Shown here: positions 50,188 through 64,000 of the stretch, one piece after another
Numbering within the stretch: the first letter of the stretch is position 1
Layout: the number at the start of each line of letters is the position of its first letter
Origin: Streptomyces armeniacus
Lineage (GTDB): Bacteria > Actinomycetota > Actinomycetes > Streptomycetales > Streptomycetaceae
Assembly: GCF_003355155.1 (NCBI RefSeq)
Contig: NZ_CP031320.1
Location: forward strand, 3,897,367-3,961,366
Reading direction: 5' to 3'
Length of the DNA stretch: 64,000 nucleotides
The notes under the pieces: generated by a model
The model's database searches: none
Told to the model about the DNA's origin: nothing
Seen by the model: the letters and a program-made list of their open reading frames with translations, nothing else
Program-made: the position numbers and the translations under genes

Positions 50188-50991
50188 GTGGAAGCGGAGC
50201 GTTCTGACGCTACGAGCCGTCTGCCGGACGTAGTGCAGGAGTTCGCGTCAGCGGTCGTCTCCGCCCTCCGGGGCGGGGACGGCCGTTTCGACGTGCTGGG
50301 CTCGGTGCTCACCCCGACCGACGACCCGGTGGCGGTGGCGGCCGTACGCGTGCTGGGCGGGGACGCGCTGGCGCCGTGCACGCTGGCGGGCCAGGTGCCG
50401 ACGGAGGACGGCCTCGTGCTGTTCGAGCGGGCGATCGGCGCGTTCCCGCCGAAGGCGGGCGGGTCCGCGGTGAGCGCCTGGAGCCACTGGGGCATGCGCG
50501 CGGCGCTGCGACGGGCGCGGAGTACGGCCGGGACGGCCGGTGCCGGGACCGGAGCCGGTGCTGACGCCGGTCAAGGACCGTACGGCGACGGGGAGTCGGG
50601 CGCGCCGGACGGTGCCGCACCGGACACCGACTGGGTCGCCGCGCAGAGCTGGCAGCAGATGACACATCAGCTCGCGCAGCTGGCCGCGCTCGCCGTGCCA
50701 GGGCTGGTGCCCCCGCTCGCCCAGGCAGTCGCCGCCCGCCCGGTGGACCTGGCGCGCGGCTTCGTACGCGCCGTACGCCGCCGCGACTGGCTGCAGGCGG
50801 CCGGCGCGGGCCGCTGGCTGGCCGTGACGCGGGGGACGCCGGAGTCCCTCGGCCTGGACACGGGGCTGGACTTCGTCCACCACATGGGCGCGGCCGACGC
50901 GCGCGTGGCCCTGCACGTGCGGGCCGCGCAGCTGGCGCGCGTGCGGGGTGACGGAGCGGCAGCCGCGTACGCCGGGGCGGCGCGCGGATGA
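50188..50991 (+). CDS. Uncharacterised helical protein, second gene of the peptide operon
   Basis: 267 aa from a GTG 8 bases after the peptide stop. Mostly helical, with a Gly/Ala-rich disordered linker around residues 115-150. A Trp/His-bearing C-terminal half (WVAAQSWQQMTHQLAQLAALAVPGLVPPLAQAV..., LDFVHHMGAADARVALHVRAAQLARV). No domain is recognised. Its stop overlaps the next start (50988-50991). Confidence 0.75.
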   Translation: MEAERSDATSRLPDVVQEFASAVVSALRGGDGRFDVLGSVLTPTDDPVAVAAVRVLGGDALAPCTLAGQVPTEDGLVLFERAIGAFPPKAGGSAVSAWSHWGMRAALRRARSTAGTAGAGTGAGADAGQGPYGDGESGAPDGAAPDTDWVAAQSWQQMTHQLAQLAALAVPGLVPPLAQAVAARPVDLARGFVRAVRRRDWLQAAGAGRWLAVTRGTPESLGLDTGLDFVHHMGAADARVALHVRAAQLARVRGDGAAAAYAGAARG

Positions 50992-52196
50992 CGGCGGCGG
51001 ATCAGCAGGCGGCGGACGGGCGGCCCGAACCGGACCGGCTCAGAGCCGGGGGCGGCGGGCCCGGGCACTATCCCGGGCCCGTACCGCCTCCGGCCCTGCT
51101 GGAACGGGTGTCGCGCGCCGCCCTGTCCTGGCTGCACGCACACCTCGGCGACTTCCGGCTGCCGGACCGTGTCACCGACCCGGGCGTGAACCGGAACGTC
51201 ACCCTGAAGCCCCTCGGCGAACTGGCCCAACTCGGCCTGTCCACACTCCGCGCGAGCCCGCCCGGCAGCGAACAGCACCGGCTGTCGCGGGAGATGCTCG
51301 ATTTCGCGTGGCGCGAGACGGGCCGCGGCGACCTGTTCCTGAGCCTCGTACGGGGCGAGCCGCACGCCACGTACCCGATGGAGATCTACGGCGCGTTCGC
51401 GGAGGCCGGGCTGCGGCACGCGGCGTTCGAGGAGTACGCCCGCTTCGCCGCGACGACGCGCGCGTGGCGGCTGTGCGAGCACGAACCGACCCGTGCGCTG
51501 GGGCTGTTCAACACCCTGCGCAGGCTGGGCGTCGGCGCCGACGGGCCGGACGGCTCCGATGGGGCCGAGGGCGCCGAGTACGCCGGGGTGATGCGCCGCA
51601 CCTGGCTCGGCGGGCTCGCCGAGCCCTGGGCCTTCGAGGTGCACGCCGGCTACGCCCTGACGCACTACGTCTTCCACGTCACCAACTGGGGCGAGGCGCC
51701 CGGCCGGCTGCCCGCGGACGTCAGCGACTACCTCGCGCAGTGGCTGCCGTCCTGGCTCGACGGCTGCGTGGAGTGCGAGCAGTGGGACCTCACCGGCGAA
51801 CTGCTCGCCGTCGCCGCGAGCCTCCCTGAGCCGTACGCGCGTGCCGTGCCGGTGGACGCGGCCTGGCACGCGTTCGCGGGCGCGCAGAACGGCGCGGGCG
51901 CCGTCGCGGAGGACGGGCCGCCACCCGTACGGGAGACCGCGGACACCTTCCTGGACTGCTACCACTCCACGCTGGTGGCCGCGTTCGCGGGCGTGCTCGC
52001 CGCCCGCGCCGCCGCCCGCACGGGGATCGGGTCTGACCACCGTACGGAGGCGCCTGACGCCCGTACGGAGACCGAACCGCACCCGCCCGTACGGCACGCC
52101 CCCACCGGTACGCCCCACAGCGCGGCGCCGCCCGCCGCACCCGTGACCACGACAGGCCCGACCGCCACGACCGCCCCCGGGGGAGGACGCCCATGA
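50988..52196 (+). CDS. DUF6895-like protein A of the peptide operon
   Basis: 402 aa, ATG overlapping the previous stop. The core (about residues 35-330) is all-helical and paralogous to the next gene. Shared blocks are LKPLGELAQLG, MLDFAWRET, RRTWLGGLAEPWAFEVHAGYALTHYVFHVTNWGE, LPADVSDYLAQWLPSWLDG, EQWDLTGELLAVAASLPEP and CYHSTLVAAFAGV. The repeated His/Asp/Glu in conserved positions suggests a ligand- or metal-binding site. A ~65-residue Pro/Thr-rich tail is disordered. The DUF6895 name is from memory of similar proteins. Confidence 0.78.
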   Translation: MTAADQQAADGRPEPDRLRAGGGGPGHYPGPVPPPALLERVSRAALSWLHAHLGDFRLPDRVTDPGVNRNVTLKPLGELAQLGLSTLRASPPGSEQHRLSREMLDFAWRETGRGDLFLSLVRGEPHATYPMEIYGAFAEAGLRHAAFEEYARFAATTRAWRLCEHEPTRALGLFNTLRRLGVGADGPDGSDGAEGAEYAGVMRRTWLGGLAEPWAFEVHAGYALTHYVFHVTNWGEAPGRLPADVSDYLAQWLPSWLDGCVECEQWDLTGELLAVAASLPEPYARAVPVDAAWHAFAGAQNGAGAVAEDGPPPVRETADTFLDCYHSTLVAAFAGVLAARAAARTGIGSDHRTEAPDARTETEPHPPVRHAPTGTPHSAAPPAAPVTTTGPTATTAPGGGRP

Positions 52197-53134
52197 CGAC
52201 CAGCGCGCCCACGACCAGCCCGCAGCTCCTGCACCGCGTCGGCGTCGGAGCCCTGGAGTGGCTCGCGGCGAACCGCACGTACTTCCGCGCCCGTACGGAC
52301 GCGGACACCCCCGGGCTGGAGATCATGGAGCGGTTCAAGCCGCTCGGTGAGCTCGCCATCATCGGGAAAGTGCTCTTCCGGGAGGGCGTCGCGGGCTCGC
52401 AGCAGTCCGTGCTCATCCGCGACCTGCTGGACTACGCGTGGCGGGAGCTGCTGGAGAACGGCGAACTGCTCGTCTGGGCGCAGCGCAGGGAGTTCCTGTC
52501 GCCCGTTTCGCTGGAGCTGTACACGCCGTTCAGCGAACTCGGCTACCGCAACCGGCAGGTCGAGGAGAACGCCCGGCTCGCCCGCGAGTCCGCCAGCTGG
52601 GCCGCCCTGGAGATGCACCCGAACCGGCGCCTCGGCATGTCCCGCGTCGAGGCCCGCGCCGGGCTGCCGCCCAGCGTCGACGTGGCGGAGGCCGCCCGGC
52701 GCACCTGGCTGGGCCGTACGCCCGAACCGTGGACCGTCGAGTACCACATCGCGTACGACATCACCCACACCGTCTTCCACCTCACCGATTGGGGTGAGCA
52801 CCCGGAGGCGCTGCCCGCCGACATCGCCGACTACCTCGCGCTGTGGCTGCCGGTCTGGATCGACGACTGGACGGACATCGGGCACTGGGACCTCCTCGGC
52901 GAACTCCTCGTCGTGGACGCCTGCCTGCCGCGTCCCACGCTGGACGCGGCGGCGTGGGAGCGGTACGCGGAGGCGCAGCGCCCGGACGGCGCGATGCCCG
53001 TACGAGGGCCGCTGCCGACGGGTGATCCGTCGGACGTGTTCGACGTGGCGTACCACCCCACGCTCGTCGCCGCGTTCGCCTCCGTCATGGCCACCTCGCG
53101 GGCCATGGCGGCGCTGGCGGGAGCGCCGTCGTGA
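52193..53134 (+). CDS. DUF6895-like protein B of the peptide operon
   Basis: 313 aa, coupled (ATGA, 52193-52196). It keeps the same blocks as protein A (FKPLGELAIIG, LLDYAWREL, RRTWLGRTPEPWTVEYHIAYDITHTVFHLTDWGE, LPADIADYLALWLPVWIDD, GHWDLLGELLVVDACLP, AYHPTLVAAFASV) but lacks the long tail. The tandem paralogues may form a heterodimer or act sequentially. Confidence 0.8.
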   Translation: MTTSAPTTSPQLLHRVGVGALEWLAANRTYFRARTDADTPGLEIMERFKPLGELAIIGKVLFREGVAGSQQSVLIRDLLDYAWRELLENGELLVWAQRREFLSPVSLELYTPFSELGYRNRQVEENARLARESASWAALEMHPNRRLGMSRVEARAGLPPSVDVAEAARRTWLGRTPEPWTVEYHIAYDITHTVFHLTDWGEHPEALPADIADYLALWLPVWIDDWTDIGHWDLLGELLVVDACLPRPTLDAAAWERYAEAQRPDGAMPVRGPLPTGDPSDVFDVAYHPTLVAAFASVMATSRAMAALAGAPS

Positions 53135-54312
53135 CGGAGGCGACCGGTCCGGCGCGCGCGTCCCTGGCCGTCCCCGACGTCGCCGTGTCCGGCGACCCGG
53201 CGCCGGCGGACCGGCTGCGTGCGGCCGTGGCCGAAGTGGACGCGCCCGACGTCGTGTTCGCACACAGCCGCTCCGGCGACCGTACGGTGGTCACCGGCGG
53301 TACGGCGCCGTGCCCGGCGGTGCCGCGCGAGGAACTGCGGTACGAGATCGGGTCCGTCACCAAGACCTTCACCGGGCTGCTGCTGGCCGCGCTGGCGGAG
53401 CGCGGCGACCTGCGGCTGTCCGACCGCGCCGTGGCGCACCTGCCCGGCCGGTCGGGCGCGCCGCGCATCGGCCGCGGGCGGGGACGCCACCGCCGTACGG
53501 CGCACCCGTACGCCGCCGCGCACCCGCGCCCGTACGCGCTGCCGCCCGCGCCCGCACCGTCCCCCGCGCACCCGCACCGCGACGCGATCACGCTGCTGCA
53601 CCTGATGGCGCACACCTCCGGACTCCCGGCGCTGCCCTGGGACTTCTACCCGCAGGGGCTGCCGCGCTGGGGCACCAACCCGTACGCCGGGTACTCCACG
53701 GCACGCCTCCTGGACGCGTTCGCGCGCAGCCGCCCCCGGCACGCGCCGGGCAGCCGCTGGCGGTACTCGAACTTCGGCGTCGCCCTTCTGGGCACCGCCC
53801 TCAGCCGCGCCACCGGCACGCCGTTCGCGGAGCTGATGGCGGAACGCGTCCTGGCGCCGCTCGGCCTGCGCAACACCGCGCTCGCTCCCGCGGGGCCCGG
53901 TACGGACGCGACAGGGCGCCGCAAGGACGGGCTGACCGAGCTGCCGCCGTTCGAGATCGGCGCGTTCACGGCGGCGGGCGGGGTACGCGCCGCGCCCGGC
54001 GACCTGCTGCGCTTCCTGGAGGCCCAACTGCGGCCGCAGGACACGCCGCTGCACGCGGAGCTGACCGCCGTACAGCTGCCGCTGCTGCGGCGCGGTCTGG
54101 GGCACCGGCACACGCACACCCTGACCTGGTTTCAGCACCCGACGGACAGCGGCCCCGTGTACTTCCACGCGGGGGCCACGATGGGGCAGGAGATCTTCCT
54201 CGGCTTCCGGCCCGGCACGGGGACGGCGCTCGTCGCCATCGCCACGCGCCGCCACACGCACTCGTCGGTGCTCGCGCGGCGGGCGTACGAGCTGCTCACG
54301 GGGCCGGCCTGA
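53131..54312 (+). CDS. Class C beta-lactamase-like serine hydrolase, last gene of the peptide operon
   Basis: 393 aa, coupled by GTGA to protein B. Catalytic motifs: SxxK in IGSVTKTFTG, YxN in RYSNFGVAL, and HxG in YFHAGATMG, as in class C beta-lactamases, DD-peptidases and esterases. An Arg/Pro/His-rich low-complexity insertion lies near residues 112-150. No signal peptide, so it probably acts in the cytoplasm, perhaps as a peptidase or esterase on the operon's product. Confidence 0.88.
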   Translation: MTEATGPARASLAVPDVAVSGDPAPADRLRAAVAEVDAPDVVFAHSRSGDRTVVTGGTAPCPAVPREELRYEIGSVTKTFTGLLLAALAERGDLRLSDRAVAHLPGRSGAPRIGRGRGRHRRTAHPYAAAHPRPYALPPAPAPSPAHPHRDAITLLHLMAHTSGLPALPWDFYPQGLPRWGTNPYAGYSTARLLDAFARSRPRHAPGSRWRYSNFGVALLGTALSRATGTPFAELMAERVLAPLGLRNTALAPAGPGTDATGRRKDGLTELPPFEIGAFTAAGGVRAAPGDLLRFLEAQLRPQDTPLHAELTAVQLPLLRRGLGHRHTHTLTWFQHPTDSGPVYFHAGATMGQEIFLGFRPGTGTALVAIATRRHTHSSVLARRAYELLTGPA

Positions 54313-56674: not shown

Positions 56675-57928
56675 TCACGCCGTCGTGAACAGCGTGACGC
56701 TGTTGTGCCCGCCGAATCCGAAGGAGCAGTTGAGCGCGGCGGACATGGCGGCCCGGCGCGGGACGGTGGCCACGACGTCCAGCTTGTGGTCACCGTCCTG
56801 GTGCGCGAAGTTGGCCGTGGGCGGGATCAGCTGGTGCTCCAGCGCCAGCACGGTGTACGCGGCCTCGATCGCACCGGCCGCGCCGAGCGCGTGCCCGACG
56901 ACACCCTTCGGCGCGGTGACGGGCGGCGGCCGGTCGCCGAACACGCGGGTGAGCGCGGCGGCTTCGGCAGCGTCGTTGAGCCGCGTCGACGTGCCGTGCG
57001 CGTTGACGTGCCCGATGTCCTCCGGCACGCAGCCCGCGTCGTGCAGCGCGGCGCGCACCGCCCGTACGGCGCCCGAGCCGTCCGGCAGCGGTGCGAAGGG
57101 GTGGTACGCGTCGGTGGACGCGCCGCAGCCGCGCAGCAGCGCGCGCGTGCGCGCCCCGCGTGCCCGCGCGTCCGACTGCCGCTCCAGGACGAGCACAGCC
57201 GCCCCCTCGCCGAGGACGAACCCGTCGCGGTCGGCGTCGAACGGGCGCGACGCCAGCTCCGGTTGCTCGCGACGGGGTGACAGGGCGCGCATCCGCTGGA
57301 AGCAGGTGGCCGTCATCGGGGACCGCGCGGACTCGCTGCCGCCGGTGAGCACGATGTCGCAGCTGCCGGAGCGCAGCAGGTCGCGCGCGACGCCCAGCGC
57401 GGTCGCCCCCGACGCGCAGGCGCTGGCCGTGGTGAACGACGGGCCGCCCGCGCCGAGATCGATGGCCACCTCGCCCGCCGCCATGTTCGGCACACTGCGC
57501 GGCAGCGCCAGCGGGGACACCCGGTGCGGCCCGCCCTGGTCGAGGTGCCGGAACTCGCCGAGGTACGTCTCCAGGCTGTTGGACCCCACCCCGAGGACGA
57601 CACCGACCCGCTCCCCGCACCACGTACGGGAGTCCAGCCCGGCGTCGTCCACCGCCGCGCGCGCGGCGGCCAGTGCCAGCCAGCCGAACCGGTCGAGGCG
57701 GCGCGCACGGGAGCGCCCCAGCTCGGCGACGACGTCGAACTCGGGCACCCGGCACGAGAAGTCGACCGGCAGACCGGCCAGTTCGGGGTCGCGGGCGGCC
57801 AGGGAGCGCCCCGCGCACAGCGTCGCCCAGTTGGCGTCCACGGTCAGGCCGGCGGGCGTGAACAGGCCGAGGCCGGTCACGGCGACCTCGGGAGCGGGAG
57901 CCTGAGCGGGTAGTGGCGCGGCGGTCAC
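56675..57928 (-). CDS. Beta-ketoacyl-ACP synthase II (FabF-like) of the Ole-type cluster
   Basis: 417 aa. Catalytic triad Cys171 (TTASACASG), His311 (NAHGTST) and His346 (GVVGHALGAAG), all intact, so it should condense malonyl-ACP with acyl chains. The GTG at 57928 overlaps the desaturase stop (GTGA, 57925-57928). Last gene of the ACP-desaturase-KAS II operon; probably extends the acyl chain destined for the Ole enzymes. Confidence 0.93.
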   Translation of the reverse strand: MTAAPLPAQAPAPEVAVTGLGLFTPAGLTVDANWATLCAGRSLAARDPELAGLPVDFSCRVPEFDVVAELGRSRARRLDRFGWLALAAARAAVDDAGLDSRTWCGERVGVVLGVGSNSLETYLGEFRHLDQGGPHRVSPLALPRSVPNMAAGEVAIDLGAGGPSFTTASACASGATALGVARDLLRSGSCDIVLTGGSESARSPMTATCFQRMRALSPRREQPELASRPFDADRDGFVLGEGAAVLVLERQSDARARGARTRALLRGCGASTDAYHPFAPLPDGSGAVRAVRAALHDAGCVPEDIGHVNAHGTSTRLNDAAEAAALTRVFGDRPPPVTAPKGVVGHALGAAGAIEAAYTVLALEHQLIPPTANFAHQDGDHKLDVVATVPRRAAMSAALNCSFGFGGHNSVTLFTTA

Positions 57929-58956
57929 GGCAACTCCGTGGCCGGCCCGGCGGCGGCCCGTACGGCGGGCTGTACGGCGCCCTGTGCGGCGTGCGCGGCC
58001 TGTGCGCGCTGCGTGTCCTGCGTGTCCTGTGCGGCCTGTGCGGCCTGTGCGGCCTGTGCGGCGCTCATGCGCGTGGCGCGGGCGTTCAGGTCCTCGAGGT
58101 AGCGGCCGAGCGCGTCGCGCGCCCGCTCGCCCGCCGGGCCGAGCCCGCCGCGCTCCAGCAGGTCCAGCACCCGCACCAGCGGCTGCAGCACCTGGTCGTG
58201 ATGGCAGCGCAGGTCGTAGATGCCCGCGACGGCCATACGCGCGGCCTTCCCGGTGAACCCCGGCATCCCGTGGCCGGGCATCCGGAAGGTGCGCGCCACC
58301 TCCGTGAACGCCTGCAGGAAGGCGTCCGGCACCAGTTCCACGGCGTGCCGGCAGAGGTCGCGGTAGAAGACCATGTGCAGGTTCTCGTCCGCGGCGATGC
58401 GCGCCAGCAGGCGTTCGCCCGCCGGATCGCCGCACGCCAGGCCCGTGTTGCGGTGGCTGATCCGGGTGGCCAGCTCCTGGATGGTCACGTACGCGATGCC
58501 GTGCAGCAGCGAGGGCTGCTCCAGCCGGTAGCCGCGCTCCAGGTGGCGCATCCGCGCGTCCTCCAGCGCGACCGGATCGACCGCACGCGTGACAGTCAGA
58601 TACGACCGCAGGGCGTGGCTGTGCCGGTCCTCCTCGGCGGTCCAGCGGTGCACCCAGGTGCCCCAGGCGCCGTCCTGCGTGAACCGGCGGGCGATCTCGT
58701 GGTGGTAGCTGGGCAGGTTGTCCTCGGTGAGCAGATTGACGACGAGCGCCTCCCGTACGGCTTGCGGCAGCGCCGACTGCCCCGGCTGCCAGGGCTCGCC
58801 GTCCAGCGGGCCGTCGTAGTCCCGCCCGGCGCCCCAGGGCACGTACTGGTGCGGGAACCAGGGGCGGGCGGCGGCGAGATGGCGGTCGAGGCCGCGGGCC
58901 ACGTACGGCTCGAGCTCGACGGCGATGTCCACGCGCCCGGGCGCCGCGCCGGTCAC
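57925..58956 (-). CDS. Soluble acyl-ACP desaturase (diiron)
   Basis: 343 aa, fatty acid desaturase type 2. Ligands: Glu78 (TEDNLP), Glu109-x-x-His112 (EEDRH), Glu161 (QELAT), and Glu191-x-x-His194 (DENLH), the complete ExxH pair of the diiron site. It would introduce a double bond into an ACP-bound chain using O2 and reductant. The C-terminal ~50 residues are an Ala/Gln/Thr repeat made by 9-bp DNA units (58028-58063). GTG overlaps the ACP stop (58953-58956). Confidence 0.93.
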   Translation of the reverse strand: MTGAAPGRVDIAVELEPYVARGLDRHLAAARPWFPHQYVPWGAGRDYDGPLDGEPWQPGQSALPQAVREALVVNLLTEDNLPSYHHEIARRFTQDGAWGTWVHRWTAEEDRHSHALRSYLTVTRAVDPVALEDARMRHLERGYRLEQPSLLHGIAYVTIQELATRISHRNTGLACGDPAGERLLARIAADENLHMVFYRDLCRHAVELVPDAFLQAFTEVARTFRMPGHGMPGFTGKAARMAVAGIYDLRCHHDQVLQPLVRVLDLLERGGLGPAGERARDALGRYLEDLNARATRMSAAQAAQAAQAAQDTQDTQRAQAAHAAQGAVQPAVRAAAGPATELP

Positions 58957-59234
58957 GGCGCGGCCTGTTCGGCGGGCCGCGGGCCGCCGACACCGAGCCG
59001 CTCCATCAGGGCGGCGGCCTCCGCGAGGGTGCTGTCCGAGTCCAGGTCGTTGTCGGTGTCCGAGAGGACCATGCCGAGCTCGCTCTCGGCCACGACCAGC
59101 ATCTCCATCAGCGCCAGCGAGTCCATCTCGAGGTCCCCGAAGGTGGTTTCGGGTGTGAGGCGGGCGCGGTCGAGATCGAAGTGCTCGGCCAGCAGGGCGG
59201 CGAGGGTGTCGAAGACTGGCTGCTGCTGTTCCAT
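58953..59234 (-). CDS. Dedicated acyl carrier protein
   Basis: 93 aa acidic ACP. The phosphopantetheine Ser39 lies in LEMDSLALMEM. Strong CGGAGGG ribosome site. Head of the ACP-desaturase-KAS II operon; the neighbouring desaturase and synthases probably act on its acyl thioester, distinct from primary fatty acid synthesis. Confidence 0.93.
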   Translation of the reverse strand: MEQQQPVFDTLAALLAEHFDLDRARLTPETTFGDLEMDSLALMEMLVVAESELGMVLSDTDNDLDSDSTLAEAAALMERLGVGGPRPAEQAAP

Positions 59235-59357
59235 GGTGAGTGCCCTCCGGATTCGGGAAGTTCGGGGTGGGGGTGTGCGTGGGGCGTCAGAAGTGTCAGA
59301 GGGAGGCCGGCGCGCGTACGCCCGTACGGAGGCGTACCGCCGTATGGGCGCGGCCCG

Positions 59358-60380
59358 TTACAGCCGGATCAGCGCCAGCCCGACGCTGAAGCCGCTGGCC
59401 AGCCCGGCCAGGGCGACCAGGTCGCCGGGCCCTGCCCGGCCGGACTCCTGCGCCAGGGCCAGCTGGAGCGGCAGCGAGGCCGAGGCGACGTTGCCGTGCT
59501 CGACGACGGTCGGCAGGCTCCGCTCCTCGGGCACACCGAACTCGGCGCAGCATCTTCGGTACTGCGGCAGGGAGATCTGGTGCACCGCGACGAACGCGCT
59601 CTCCCGCATGAGCGCGATCTCCCTGGGGTGGCGTTCGGCGAAGAGGGGCATGTGCCGCCGGCCGGTCTCCACCAGGTCGCCGTTCAGCCGCAGGGTGCAC
59701 ACGTCCTCGTCGTCACCCCTCGGGTGCATCGAACCGCCCGCCACGACGGTGCACACGTCCCAGGAGGCGGATTCGGCGCTGAACACGGTGGCGAGCACGC
59801 CAGGTTCGCGCTCTCCGGCGGGCCCGGCCGTCAGCAGCATGGCGGCGCCGGCGTCGCTCACGGTGTAGCCGGGCGTGGCGGCGCGGAAAGCGCGCAGGTC
59901 GGGCAGGTGCCAGCGGATGGCGAGGGTCGGGGCCTCGCCGCAGGTGATCAGGACGGTGCGGTACTGCCCGGACTCGATGAGCGCGCGGGCCACCTGGAGC
60001 GCGTTGAGCACGCTGTTGCAGGCGTTCTTCACGTCGAACGCCGGGCAGGTGGCGCCGAGTTTGGCCGCCACGATGTGCGCGGTGGCCGGCTCGATCAGAT
60101 CCTGTCCGGAGGAGGCGAACAGCAGCAGGTCCACGTCGTCCAGCGGCGTCCCGGCGGCGGCCAGTGCCTTGCCGGCGGCGGTCGCCGCCAGGTCGGAGCA
60201 CTGCTCCTGCTCGCCCTTGACGTGGACGCCCCTGATCCCGGACAGCTCCAGCGCGCCGGGCGGCGGCACGAACGGACTGTCCGCGGCGGCGATGAGCGCC
60301 CGGGTCTCCGCCATGGTCCGGTAACCGGGCGGCAGATGGACCGAGGTGGCCAGCAATCGGGCTTGGGAGCGCTTCAGCAC
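59358..60380 (-). CDS. KAS III / OleA-position thiolase-fold condensing enzyme
   Basis: 340 aa. Catalytic Cys121 (DVKNACNSVLNAL), His267 (AVHQISL), Asn297 (EHGNVASAS). In Ole pathways OleA of this fold condenses two activated fatty acids head-to-head; the gene sits where OleA is expected, next to OleD. Whether it uses ACP or CoA thioesters is open; the adjacent ACP favours ACP. The GTG at 60380 is 6 bases after TACGGT (minus strand, 60392-60387), so its transcript is probably leaderless. Confidence 0.88.
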   Translation of the reverse strand: MLKRSQARLLATSVHLPPGYRTMAETRALIAAADSPFVPPPGALELSGIRGVHVKGEQEQCSDLAATAAGKALAAAGTPLDDVDLLLFASSGQDLIEPATAHIVAAKLGATCPAFDVKNACNSVLNALQVARALIESGQYRTVLITCGEAPTLAIRWHLPDLRAFRAATPGYTVSDAGAAMLLTAGPAGEREPGVLATVFSAESASWDVCTVVAGGSMHPRGDDEDVCTLRLNGDLVETGRRHMPLFAERHPREIALMRESAFVAVHQISLPQYRRCCAEFGVPEERSLPTVVEHGNVASASLPLQLALAQESGRAGPGDLVALAGLASGFSVGLALIRL

Positions 60381-60505
60381 CGGCCCACCGTAGCGTCGCG
60401 TGATCGGTTTCAGTGTCTTCGCGCGCTTCCATTGAGGTATGCAACACAAGAGGGTGAATAGGTGTGTTGTACCGCTTTACCGCGCGCAGGCGGCAGCGCC
60501 CCCGG

Positions 60506-61510
60506 CTACCCGCCGACGGCGGGCACGCGGCCGATTTCCGCCGCCGTACGCCGCAGCCCCTCCTCCGTGCTGACGAACGGCCCGTAGCCGAGGTCGCGGC
60601 GCGCCGCCGAGATGTCGAACCAGTGCGCGGCGCAGAGGTAGTCCACCAGCCCGCGGGTCAGCGCGGGCTCCCCCGCGAGCCGCAGCGCGCGGTGTACGGG
60701 TTCCACGACGGCGGCTGCCGCCCGTACGAGACCCGCCGGCACGGACCGCTCCTCGGGCGGCAGACCGGCCGCGGCGAGCAGTGAGTTGACGGCGTCGCGG
60801 ACGGTGCGCGGATCGCCCTGGCTGAGGAAGTACGCGCGGCCCGCGACGGGCGAGCCGGGCGCCAGCAGGGGAAGCGCCAGCAGATGCGCGGCGGCGGCGT
60901 TCTCCACGTACACGGTGTCCGTCCGTTTGCGGCCGCCGTCGGGGAGGCGCAGCAGACCGGAGCGCGCACGCCGTACGACGCGCGGCAGGAAGTGCGGATC
61001 GCCCGGCCCCCAGATGACGTGCGGCCGGAGTGCCACCGTGCTCAGCCGGTCCGAGTCCGCGGCCAGCACGTGCCGTTCGGCCGCCGCCTTCGTACGGGCG
61101 TACGCGGTGGTGTGCCGGCGCGGATACGGCTGCGACTCGTCGACGCCCTCCAGGTCGCGGCCGTCGAAGACGACGCTGGGCGTCGAGGTGTGGACGAGCC
61201 GCGGCACGCCGTTCCGGAGGCAGGCGGCGACGACGTTGCGGGTGCCGGCGACGTTGACGGCCTCGTACGCGGACACGGGCCCCGACAGGCCCGCCCTGGC
61301 CGCGCAGTGGACGACCGCGTCGCAGCCCGCGGTGGCACCCTCCACCGCGCGCGCGTCGCGTACGTCGTCGAGGTGCTGCCGTACGCCCAGAGCGGCCAGC
61401 CGCGGGTGCGGCGTACGGCTCAGCGAGCGCACGTCGTGCCCCGCCTCCGCAAGCTGCGCGCACACGGCGCGCCCCAGGAAGCCGCTGCCGCCCGTCACGA
61501 GGACCTTCAC
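60506..61510 (-). CDS. oleD: OleD-like NADPH-dependent 2-alkyl-3-oxoalkanoate reductase
   Basis: 334 aa extended SDR. VLVTGGSGFLGRAVC is the dinucleotide motif, HTSTPSVVFDGRDLEGVDES and TAYARTKAAAERHVL give the Ser and YxxxK catalytic residues. TVALRPHVIWGPGDPHFLPRVV and GRAYFLSQGDP match OleD closely from memory. It reduces the beta-keto acid made by OleA to the beta-hydroxy acid. GTG overlaps the oleC stop (GTGA, 61507-61510). Confidence 0.88.
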   Translation of the reverse strand: MKVLVTGGSGFLGRAVCAQLAEAGHDVRSLSRTPHPRLAALGVRQHLDDVRDARAVEGATAGCDAVVHCAARAGLSGPVSAYEAVNVAGTRNVVAACLRNGVPRLVHTSTPSVVFDGRDLEGVDESQPYPRRHTTAYARTKAAAERHVLAADSDRLSTVALRPHVIWGPGDPHFLPRVVRRARSGLLRLPDGGRKRTDTVYVENAAAAHLLALPLLAPGSPVAGRAYFLSQGDPRTVRDAVNSLLAAAGLPPEERSVPAGLVRAAAAVVEPVHRALRLAGEPALTRGLVDYLCAAHWFDISAARRDLGYGPFVSTEEGLRRTAAEIGRVPAVGG

Positions 61511-63198
61511 GGCAGCCGCCCTCCGCGCAGTCTGCGGGCGGCCCAGCGGGCCAGCTCCGGACGGTCGATCTTCGAGTTGTGCCGGACGTCGACCGGCAGC
61601 CCCGGATGGAACAGCACCTGCCGCACACCGCTCGTGTGCGGGAACTCCCCGAACCGCGCCAGTACCTCCACGACGACGTTCCACCGCTCGTCCCGCCCCA
61701 GTCGCCGCTCGGGCTCGACGCACAGGACGGGAAGCTGGGCACCCGCCGGGCCCACCCCGACCAGCGCGCTGCGGCGCACCGCGGGCACGGTGTTGGCGAC
61801 CGGCTCGACCTGTTCCGGATACAGCTCGCCGGCCGCCGTACGCACACGCTGCGACGCCCGCCCGCAGAACCACAGCCGGCCGTGCGGATCGAACCGCCCG
61901 AGGTCCCCCGTACGGTGCACGACGCGCGCGCCGTCACGGATCTTCGCGAGCGCCGTACGGTCGGGGTGGCCCTCGTAGCGCTCACTGGTGTTCGGCCCGG
62001 CGACCGTGATCTCGCCGACGGCGCCCGGCGGCGCCTCCAGCCCGTCGTGCCACTCCGGGACGGCCTCGTCGGTGAGGCCGATGACCCGTACGAGATTCCC
62101 CGGCAGCGGCCACCCGAGGCAGGTGCCGTGCCCGCCCTCCGTCAGCCGGCGGACGTCACCGAGGAGTTCACGGCTGTCGAGGGCGCTCACGGGCATCGCC
62201 TCGGTGGCGCCGTACACGGAGGTCACCGTCGCGTCCGCCGGCAGGCACGGGCGCAGCCGCTCCGCCGTACGCGGGTCGAGGGAGGCGCCGCCGCACACGA
62301 CGGCCCGCAGCGACTCCAGTACGACACCCTCTGCCGCGCAGTGCCGCGCCAGCCGGTCCAGCGGTACCGGCGACGCGAACAGCCCGGCGACGCCGAACCG
62401 GCGGATGTCCCGTACGAGCACGGCGGGATCGGCGGACGCCGGGCGGAGGAAGTCCATGTCCGGGACCACCATGCTGAACCCCAGCGCCGTGCCGCCCAGC
62501 GCGAACGGAGGCAGCGTCGACATGCCCACCTCGCCCGGCTCCAGCGGCCACACGTCGCGCGCCATGCGGAGCTGCGCGGACAGCTGGCGCGTGCGGTACT
62601 CGACGGCCTTCGGGAGCCCGGTGGCACCGGAGGTGAAGGCGAGCATCGCGACGGGGTCCGGGCCTGGTTCCGGGCCCGGGCCCGGCTTCGGTTCCGGGGC
62701 GTCGGGCGCTTCGGGTGCGGCGGGCTGTGCGGCGCTCAGTGCGCACAGGCGGTCGAGGGAGACGCCGTACAGGCGCGGCACCTGCCCCCCGACGACAATC
62801 GACAGCCGTACGGTGCGCCGCGCCCACCCCAGCAGCAGCCGCGCCGCGTGCGCGCGCGGCACCCCGATGAACGCCTCCGGCGCCACCGTGTCCAGACACG
62901 CCTTCACCGCCGGCTTTGCGATGCCCGGGTCGATCAGCACCGGTACGGCGCCGATCCTGCTCAACGCACCGGCCAGCGCGGCCAGTTCCGGGCCCGGCGG
63001 CACCATCAGACACGTACGGGTGCCGGGCCGCAGCCCCGCGTACGTCAGCGCGCTCGTGTACGCGTCGCAGCGCGCGCTCAGCTCCCCGTACGTCACCGCC
63101 GTGTGCCGCCCGCCGGTGGCAGGGCTGCGCAGGGCGACCGCTTCCGGGTGCGTGCGCGCCGCCTGCTCGACGCCGTCGAGAAGCCGCGCCGTCGGCAT
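61507..63198 (-). CDS. oleC: OleC-like beta-lactone synthetase (AMP-dependent ligase superfamily)
   Basis: 563 aa. ATP site LAFTSGATGLPKAVEY, acidic motif VYGATEAMPVS, hinge HRTGDLGRFDPHGRLWFCGRASQRVRTAAGELYPEQVEP, which is the OleC-type sequence, and C-terminal DVRHNSKIDRPELA carrying a Lys. OleC converts the beta-hydroxy acid to a beta-lactone using ATP. ATG at 63198 with GAGGAA, 10 bases after the oleB stop. A Pro/Glu/Gly linker lies near residues 165-195. Confidence 0.9.
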   Translation of the reverse strand: MPTARLLDGVEQAARTHPEAVALRSPATGGRHTAVTYGELSARCDAYTSALTYAGLRPGTRTCLMVPPGPELAALAGALSRIGAVPVLIDPGIAKPAVKACLDTVAPEAFIGVPRAHAARLLLGWARRTVRLSIVVGGQVPRLYGVSLDRLCALSAAQPAAPEAPDAPEPKPGPGPEPGPDPVAMLAFTSGATGLPKAVEYRTRQLSAQLRMARDVWPLEPGEVGMSTLPPFALGGTALGFSMVVPDMDFLRPASADPAVLVRDIRRFGVAGLFASPVPLDRLARHCAAEGVVLESLRAVVCGGASLDPRTAERLRPCLPADATVTSVYGATEAMPVSALDSRELLGDVRRLTEGGHGTCLGWPLPGNLVRVIGLTDEAVPEWHDGLEAPPGAVGEITVAGPNTSERYEGHPDRTALAKIRDGARVVHRTGDLGRFDPHGRLWFCGRASQRVRTAAGELYPEQVEPVANTVPAVRRSALVGVGPAGAQLPVLCVEPERRLGRDERWNVVVEVLARFGEFPHTSGVRQVLFHPGLPVDVRHNSKIDRPELARWAARRLRGGRLP

Positions 63199-63208
63199 GC
63201 CCGCTTCC

Positions 63209-64000
63209 TCAGGCACGTGGCGCCCGGGGAGCGGCCGCGTGCGTGCCCGACGACGGGGACGGCGACGGCGCCGCCGACGCCGACAGGAAGTCGCGTACGT
63301 CCTGGGTGACACGCAGCGGCGCGTCCTCGAGGAGCAGGTGCCCCGCCTCCGGATACAGCCGCGGCCGCGCGTGCGGCATACGGCGCAGCCACTCCGCCAG
63401 CACACGGTCGTCGAACACGGGATCGCGCATGCCCCAGCACAGCAGCGTCGGCACACGGCGGAGCACGTCCAGGTCGTCGCCCAGGCGCCGCGCCATGTCC
63501 CAGCCCATGTCGGACGGATGGAGCGGGATCGCCCGCACGAACTCCTCGATGGAACGCCGCTCCCCGGCGCGCCCGTACGGTGCGAGATACGCCTTCCGCA
63601 CCGCCCGCGGCATACGGCTGCGCAGCCCCAGATACGTCACCGCGCGCGCGAAGATGTTGTACCGGTTGCTGAGCCGGGCCAGCAGCGCCGAATCGTGCAC
63701 CGCCCGCAGCCCCCAGTGCAGCCGGTGCCCCTCCGGCCACGGGAACGCCACCGTATTGAGGATGACCAGTCGCGCCACCCGCTCCGGATGGCTGCACGCC
63801 CAGCGCAGCCCGAGCGGTCCGCCCCAGTCGTGCACCACCACCGTCCAGCCGTCCTCGGGCGCGCCGTCCTCCCGTACGAGATGCCGTACGAGTCCCTCCA
63901 CGCGCTCCACACGGGCGTCGAACCCGTCGGCCGTGAACGGCTCCGCCGGACGGCTCGACAGGCCCATGCCGCCGAGGTCCGGCGCTACGCAGCGGTGGTC
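63209..64000 (-). CDS. oleB: OleB-like alpha/beta hydrolase (haloalkane dehalogenase type), 5' end outside window
   Basis: At least 263 aa visible; the frame runs open to the right edge. HRCVAPDLGGMG precedes the nucleophile Asp in VVVHDWGGPLGLRWA, the haloalkane dehalogenase/OleB motif. A helical cap follows; LLCWGMRDPVFDD gives the acidic residue and PEAGHLLLEDAP the His. OleB decarboxylates the beta-lactone to a long-chain olefin. In some actinobacteria oleB and oleC are fused; here they are 10 bases apart. Confidence 0.88.
   Translation of the reverse strand, partial: DHRCVAPDLGGMGLSSRPAEPFTADGFDARVERVEGLVRHLVREDGAPEDGWTVVVHDWGGPLGLRWACSHPERVARLVILNTVAFPWPEGHRLHWGLRAVHDSALLARLSNRYNIFARAVTYLGLRSRMPRAVRKAYLAPYGRAGERRSIEEFVRAIPLHPSDMGWDMARRLGDDLDVLRRVPTLLCWGMRDPVFDDRVLAEWLRRMPHARPRLYPEAGHLLLEDAPLRVTQDVRDFLSASAAPSPSPSSGTHAAAPRAPRA

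Follow-up and report, generated by a model that had tools for sequence, protein, structure and literature searches.

The window, a stretch of 64,000 nucleotides (bases 3897367-3961366) of the 8.08 Mb single-contig genome of Streptomyces armeniacus, closes with a row of seven genes on the minus strand:

63209..64000, minus strand, cut by the window end: OleB-like alpha/beta hydrolase (beta-lactone decarboxylase); Pfam Abhydrolase_1, 4.3e-30
61507..63197, minus strand: OleC-like AMP-forming beta-lactone synthetase; NCBIfam NF045786, PRK09274
60506..61510, minus strand: OleD-like 2-alkyl-3-oxoalkanoate reductase; NF042422; Tyr137/Lys141
59358..60380, minus strand: OleA-type KAS III, GTG start; Glu-Pro at OleA position 117; Cys, His, Asn
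58953..59234, minus strand: ACP; Pfam PP-binding, 5.8e-08; Ser39
57925..58956, minus strand: soluble di-iron acyl-ACP desaturase; Pfam FA_desaturase_2, 1e-60
56675..57928, minus strand: KAS II (FabF-like elongating synthase); PRK07314, 417.7 bits; Cys-His-His

Transcription runs from OleB through OleC, OleD, the KAS III, the ACP and the acyl-ACP desaturase to KAS II. The initial annotation had described genes of one direction with GTGA coupling in sub-operons, and such overlaps are indeed present between OleC and OleD, ACP and desaturase, and desaturase and KAS II. The KAS III is separated by about 125 bases from OleD and by about 123 bases from the ACP; with these gaps on both its sides, the row may or may not be co-transcribed across it. 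A scan for consensus promoters and terminators gave no match. Extension of the sequence beyond position 64000, which the initial annotation had called for, yielded the complete OleB (332 aa; locus L009, 7576-8574). Values of dN/dS between 0.13 and 0.39 across all seven genes indicate purifying selection. The gene names assigned in the initial annotation, with the KAS III in the OleA position, agree with Pfam, NCBIfam and the residues described below, with reserves on OleB, OleC, OleD and the KAS III; the enzyme identities and their linkage are firm. On the plus strand of the window, at 50988-54312, two adjacent genes for DUF6895 proteins are followed by a beta-lactamase-family (PF00144) gene; genes similar to this set, as judged by eye, adjoin the cluster in the related locus L074.

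Judged by its residues, the window KAS III is an OleA. The OleA hallmark consists of Glu117 followed by Pro, together with Cys, His and Asn (PMC7064751); the residue at position 117 reaches into the partner subunit, and its mechanism has been described (PMC4578411). Alignment to OleA structures revealed this complete set in the window protein, with Glu-Pro at position 117. A reading as FabH was rejected on residues, as Glu-Pro replaces those of FabH; the refuting case named in the initial annotation, a KAS III that accepts acetyl-CoA alone, is so far disfavoured. Together with the proteins of the loci fetched after a search of the genus at E <= 1e-40, the window protein forms one similarity cluster of 38 KAS III, comprising 32 Glu-Pro types, five FabH-like paralogues without Glu-Pro (in L055-L058 and L060) and one protein cut by a locus edge. 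NCBIfam fails to separate OleA from FabH (130 versus 129.6 bits, both below cut-off). When the predicted structure (mean pLDDT 85.5) was compared by Foldseek, the first four matches by E-value were FabH; among the 50 matches listed, TM-scores by query length ranged from 0.80 to 0.84 for OleA and from 0.76 to 0.80 for FabH. The model thus appears slightly closer to OleA, in a fold comparison that separates the two weakly. The pattern EPxx[AS]x(14,18)DxxNACL, which serves for the retrieval of OleA and is not a biochemical definition (PMC7158056), fits the window OleA except for its last letter, Asn for Leu. Among the 90 non-redundant OleAs introduced below, 88 have the same single mismatch and two have no pattern match; since the scan of the species collection used NACN-containing patterns, this letter can be judged fairly in no more than 32 Glu-Pro OleAs, those of the window and the genus-search loci, all of which carry NACN. 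An OleA tree, thinned to a third of the members in the class with GT, OleC, P450 and OleD, places the window in a clade of 33 rows (SH-aLRT 100). Of these, 30 adjoin a type I PKS; the window, L074 and L093 make up the rest. The row OleA_Xcamp_3fk5 of this tree is a Xanthomonas oryzae homologue deposited as FabH, with a long branch and an unsure position; X. campestris OleA chains align in the same way.

With homologues of OleA, OleB, OleC and OleD encoded together, the locus belongs to the OleABCD type at family level. OleC scores above the cut-off of PRK09274 (549.6 bits, cut-off 478) and below that of the olefin beta-lactone synthetase model NF045786 (554.6 bits, cut-off 900); OleD likewise scores 389.9 bits against NF042422 (cut-off 580), both staying short of the NCBIfam equivalog cut-offs. 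The OleB-like protein matched no OleB model in the NCBIfam search. Tyr137/Lys141 of OleD is present in all 56 ungapped homologues, and the OleD tree, thinned like that of OleA, assigns the window copy to a 20-row clade separate from the GT-linked OleDs. In OleB, Asp127 is conserved in 25/25 and His290 in 23/23 ungapped homologues; an Asp nucleophile and a His are what we take to be the catalytic residues of OleB, and the window protein has both. Ole clusters that lack OleB are presumed to yield beta-lactones (PMC7064751), and a beta-lactone might be the end product here as well, with the OleB-like protein, whose closest named PDB relatives are haloalkane dehalogenases, having another job. Although OleB was assigned by family, motif and position only, this is highly improbable, as its gene stands first in the row and the Asp and His are shared with homologues beside OleC and OleD.

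The remaining three genes form a cassette. Ser39 of the ACP is conserved in 26/26 homologues. The desaturase has a PF03405 domain with the six iron-ligand positions, which are intact in all three cluster copies. Its tree places it in a nine-row cassette clade (95) and assigns the other desaturase of the genome to a separate clade of 24 rows (99); the latter enzyme is presumably a housekeeping enzyme, since a homologue occurs in 142 of 150 genomes. KAS II exceeds the cut-off of PRK07314 (387) and scores 431 against TIGR03150 (cut-off 493.75); with Cys-His-His conserved in 27/27 homologues it is assigned to KAS II (FabF). Its identity is 91% to the L074 copy and 41.8% to a FabF-like protein encoded at another site of the genome. 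In the KAS II tree, from which L167 (no KAS II found) and L168 were left out, the window lies in a 12-row clade (100/99). A desaturase is present in 10/12 loci of this clade versus 1/35 outside, its absence having been rechecked by tblastn at 1e-20, or in 6/8 versus 1/35 without L210-L213, which were fetched via the desaturase search; the rows of the clade share ancestry, so these counts are not a test of independent events. At 9341-15684 of L210, the row desaturase-ACP-KAS II-MMPL-type III PKS-ICMT is likely an unsaturated phenolic-lipid or pyrone cluster with the same cassette, and type III PKS genes also lie near the KAS II cassette in L173 and L178. Because its KAS II and desaturase clades are shared with other loci, those with type III PKS included, the cassette looks like a unit that would supply unsaturated acyl-ACP to different condensing enzymes. 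From the trees we infer that it may have been transferred as one unit, and its relatives suggest an exchange of chain-making parts between pathways. Elsewhere in the genome (G000:C1, around 1718550-1719109 and neighbouring bases; L005, L006) two ketosynthases lie side by side, one of them without the usual Cys context, as in type II PKS.

Of 199 genomes of the genus, 38 contain a relative of the KAS III (E <= 1e-40). Neighbourhoods were taken from the window genome and 30 of the 37 others, and in 8 of these 31 OleA, B, C and D lie within about 20 kb. A scan of a species-genome collection gave 423 relatives, of which the best 80 loci were analysed. Gene calling on both sets gave 111 OleA genes altogether; the 90 that are non-redundant at 95% identity were classed by their neighbours within seven genes, some classes being incomplete owing to short contigs: GT, OleC, P450 and OleD (28/90); type I PKS and OleBCD (10/90); type I PKS alone (8/90); AurF, ACP and KAS II (8/90); type I PKS, OleBCD, ACP and KAS II (6/90); FAAL with its own ACP, OleC, OleD, GT and P450 (6/90); FabH, ACP, KAS II, CMD and P450 (5/90); PKS, OleB and OleC (4/90); OleBCD, ACP and KAS II only (2/90); the window type (2/90); and 11 other combinations with one locus each.

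Several of these neighbourhoods deserve mention in their own right. In the Streptomyces loci L042, L044-L046, L079-L092, L094, L095, L098, L101, L102 and L132, a reducing type I PKS (KS-AT-DH-MT-ER-KR-ACP in the one example scanned) is divergent to OleA-OleB-OleC-OleD; in part of these loci ACP and KAS II follow. The arrangement may represent an olefin pathway fed with polyketides. OleA-ACP-KAS II stands beside an AurF-type N-oxygenase, with no OleBCD nearby, in L051, L052 (which also has an MMPL transporter and an SDR), L106, L115, L131, L133, L134 and L138. L055-L058 and L060 contain a second KAS III (no Glu-Pro), ACP, KAS II, the OleA-type KAS III, a CMD-family protein and a P450, and no OleBCD. 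In L047-L050, L107 and L118, FAAL, ACP and P450s precede OleA-GT-P450-OleC-OleD, without OleB; this may be a carrier-bound route to glycosylated beta-lactones.

The full set of seven genes is also encoded in L074, with its order unchanged, and in L054, where the order differs, so that the co-occurrence of oleBCD with desaturase and ACP, for which the initial annotation had proposed a genome search, is not limited to the window strain; the flanks of L074 are collinear with the window, and L074 is therefore not an independent case. OleBCD of the same families accompany OleA in 22 of the 90 non-redundant loci. In L093, whose OleA comes next after that of L074 in tree proximity, none of the sought partner genes is nearby, and neither OleB nor OleD has a match in its genome at the thresholds used. 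The seven genes might still be two neighbours with separate functions, an ordinary OleABCD drawing on the general acyl pool and a cassette whose unusual fatty acid goes into another product or a membrane lipid. In keeping with this, the cassette or an ACP-KAS II pair occurs without OleA within 10 kb on either side in L164-L166, L168-L179 and L210-L213, OleABCD with a type I PKS exists without the cassette, and there are the gaps around the KAS III. However, ACP and KAS II lie near OleA, in several gene orders, in 25 of the 90 loci (L054, where both lie just beyond the seven-gene limit, would add one), and in L130, where as in L059 genes missed by the gene caller were read by tblastn, ACP-desaturase-KAS II adjoins an OleA in a genome without an OleB or OleD match at the thresholds used. 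We regard separate functions as rather unlikely.

Another reading concerns the reaction of OleA itself, which could join a beta-ketoacyl-ACP made by KAS II to an acyl chain and so give a ketone or alpha-pyrone lipid, OleBCD having a minor or side-product role. PpyS uses an equivalent Glu and joins an acyl to a 3-oxoacyl thioester (PMC4578411), and OleA-ACP-KAS II loci without OleBCD nearby exist (L051, L055-L058, L060, L059). The genomes of L051, L059 and L130 have no match to OleB (E <= 1e-25) or OleD (E <= 1e-40), a threshold that misses the more distant OleD of L047, from the same genome as L051. This reading is nevertheless very unlikely for the window, where OleB, OleC and OleD are adjacent, intact and under purifying selection, and where OleA and OleD both fall into clades rich in OleBCD-linked loci.

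We consider it fairly probable that the seven genes encode a head-to-head olefin pathway of the OleABCD type that provides its own unsaturated acyl-ACP, as the initial annotation had suggested. This rests on the OleA residues, the recurrence in other loci, purifying selection, the desaturase-linked KAS II clade and the precedent for acyl-ACP use. A fatty chain from the general fatty-acid synthase would be carried by the ACP, the desaturase would add one double bond to the bound chain, and KAS II would elongate the unsaturated chain with the reducing enzymes of the cell; the order and number of rounds are conjectural, desaturation before elongation being modelled on plants (PMC8002970). OleA would then accept the chain, most likely straight from the ACP, a step proposed because of the Pfa/OleA precedent (PMC6463001), and condense it with a second acyl thioester with Glu117 as base. 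The resulting beta-keto acid would be reduced by OleD, OleC would close the beta-lactone, and OleB would remove CO2 to leave an internal olefin that carries one or two additional double bonds. Of the products envisaged by the initial annotation, a polyunsaturated olefin or a beta-lactone, the olefin is thus favoured, whereas the beta-lactone is less likely in view of OleB with its Asp and His. A diene or triene seems a safer guess than a highly polyunsaturated chain, because one desaturase gives one extra double bond per treated chain.

More broadly, and with chances we would put slightly short of even, the window OleA could belong to an unrecognised actinobacterial family of carrier-protein-fed OleAs, marked by Asn after the active-site Cys and served by interchangeable chain builders; here the cassette would fix where the double bond lies in diene or triene internal olefins, which would form a new class. 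The chain builders of this family would, just as tentatively, be reducing type I PKS, FAAL-ACP, ACP-KAS II and the oxygen-using desaturase-ACP-KAS II cassette that type III PKS clusters also contain. Should this hold, bacteria do not depend on their ordinary fatty acids for head-to-head hydrocarbon synthesis but fit different chain makers onto the same condensing machinery, and recognition of the carrier protein by OleA becomes directly testable. It would also point to olefins with a set double bond and suggest that an earlier pattern-based survey missed oleABCD in Streptomyces.

The OleACD beta-lactone type is exemplified by the lipstatin cluster genes and nocardiolactone. Such clusters share homologues of OleA, OleC and OleD in Actinobacteria, the A. 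atraurantiacus type being OleA-GT-OleC-P450-OleD, and are defined by the lack of OleB (PMC7064751), whereas the window has OleB. With the classical OleABCD of Xanthomonas and Micrococcales the window shares the same four enzymes and the Glu117-Pro of OleA, but the accessible text on those systems describes no dedicated ACP, desaturase or KAS II (PMC7064751; PMC7158056). After NAC, classical OleA has Leu and the clade of the window OleA has Asn. The word Streptomyces is absent from the accessible text of the pattern-based OleA survey (PMC7158056), and the oleC/oleD of one Streptomyces paper are macrolide resistance genes, not olefin genes (PMC11430731). In a literature search that covered few subscription papers, and is thus weak evidence of absence, we found neither oleABCD combined in one cluster with genes for ACP, acyl-ACP desaturase and KAS II nor a Streptomyces OleABCD beside a reducing PKS. 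The pyrone synthases PpyS and PyrS resemble the window OleA in KAS III fold, head-to-head condensation and catalytic Glu, but yield the pyrone as single enzymes, without OleBCD (PMC4578411). The unusual monoenes of plants, as in the anacardic acids of Pelargonium, arise in a comparable sequence of a special acyl-ACP desaturase, elongation and a condensing enzyme; there the acceptor is a type III PKS, as in the bacterial L210, and not OleA (PMC8002970). The initial annotation had held that known Ole pathways draw acyl-CoA from the general pool; as their only source, this does not agree with Shewanella and Photobacterium, where OleA takes chains made by Pfa and OleABCD with the Pfa synthase makes a 31:9 hydrocarbon (PMC6463001). 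Co-expression of pfaA-E and oleA in fadD-less E. coli gave a 31:8 ketone, and the authors concluded that acyl-ACP is the in vivo substrate (PMC6463001); by analogy, acyl-ACP is the likely substrate of the window OleA. On inspection by eye, no gene called within the 15 kb of L009 encodes a Pfa-type multidomain synthase. As in the Pfa/Ole system, in which the pfa and ole operons can be adjacent, OleABCD in the window would be fed unsaturated chains by a dedicated carrier-protein system, but while the chain of the former comes from a multidomain anaerobic PUFA synthase (PMC6463001), the window encodes a separate ACP, a desaturase that uses oxygen, and KAS II.
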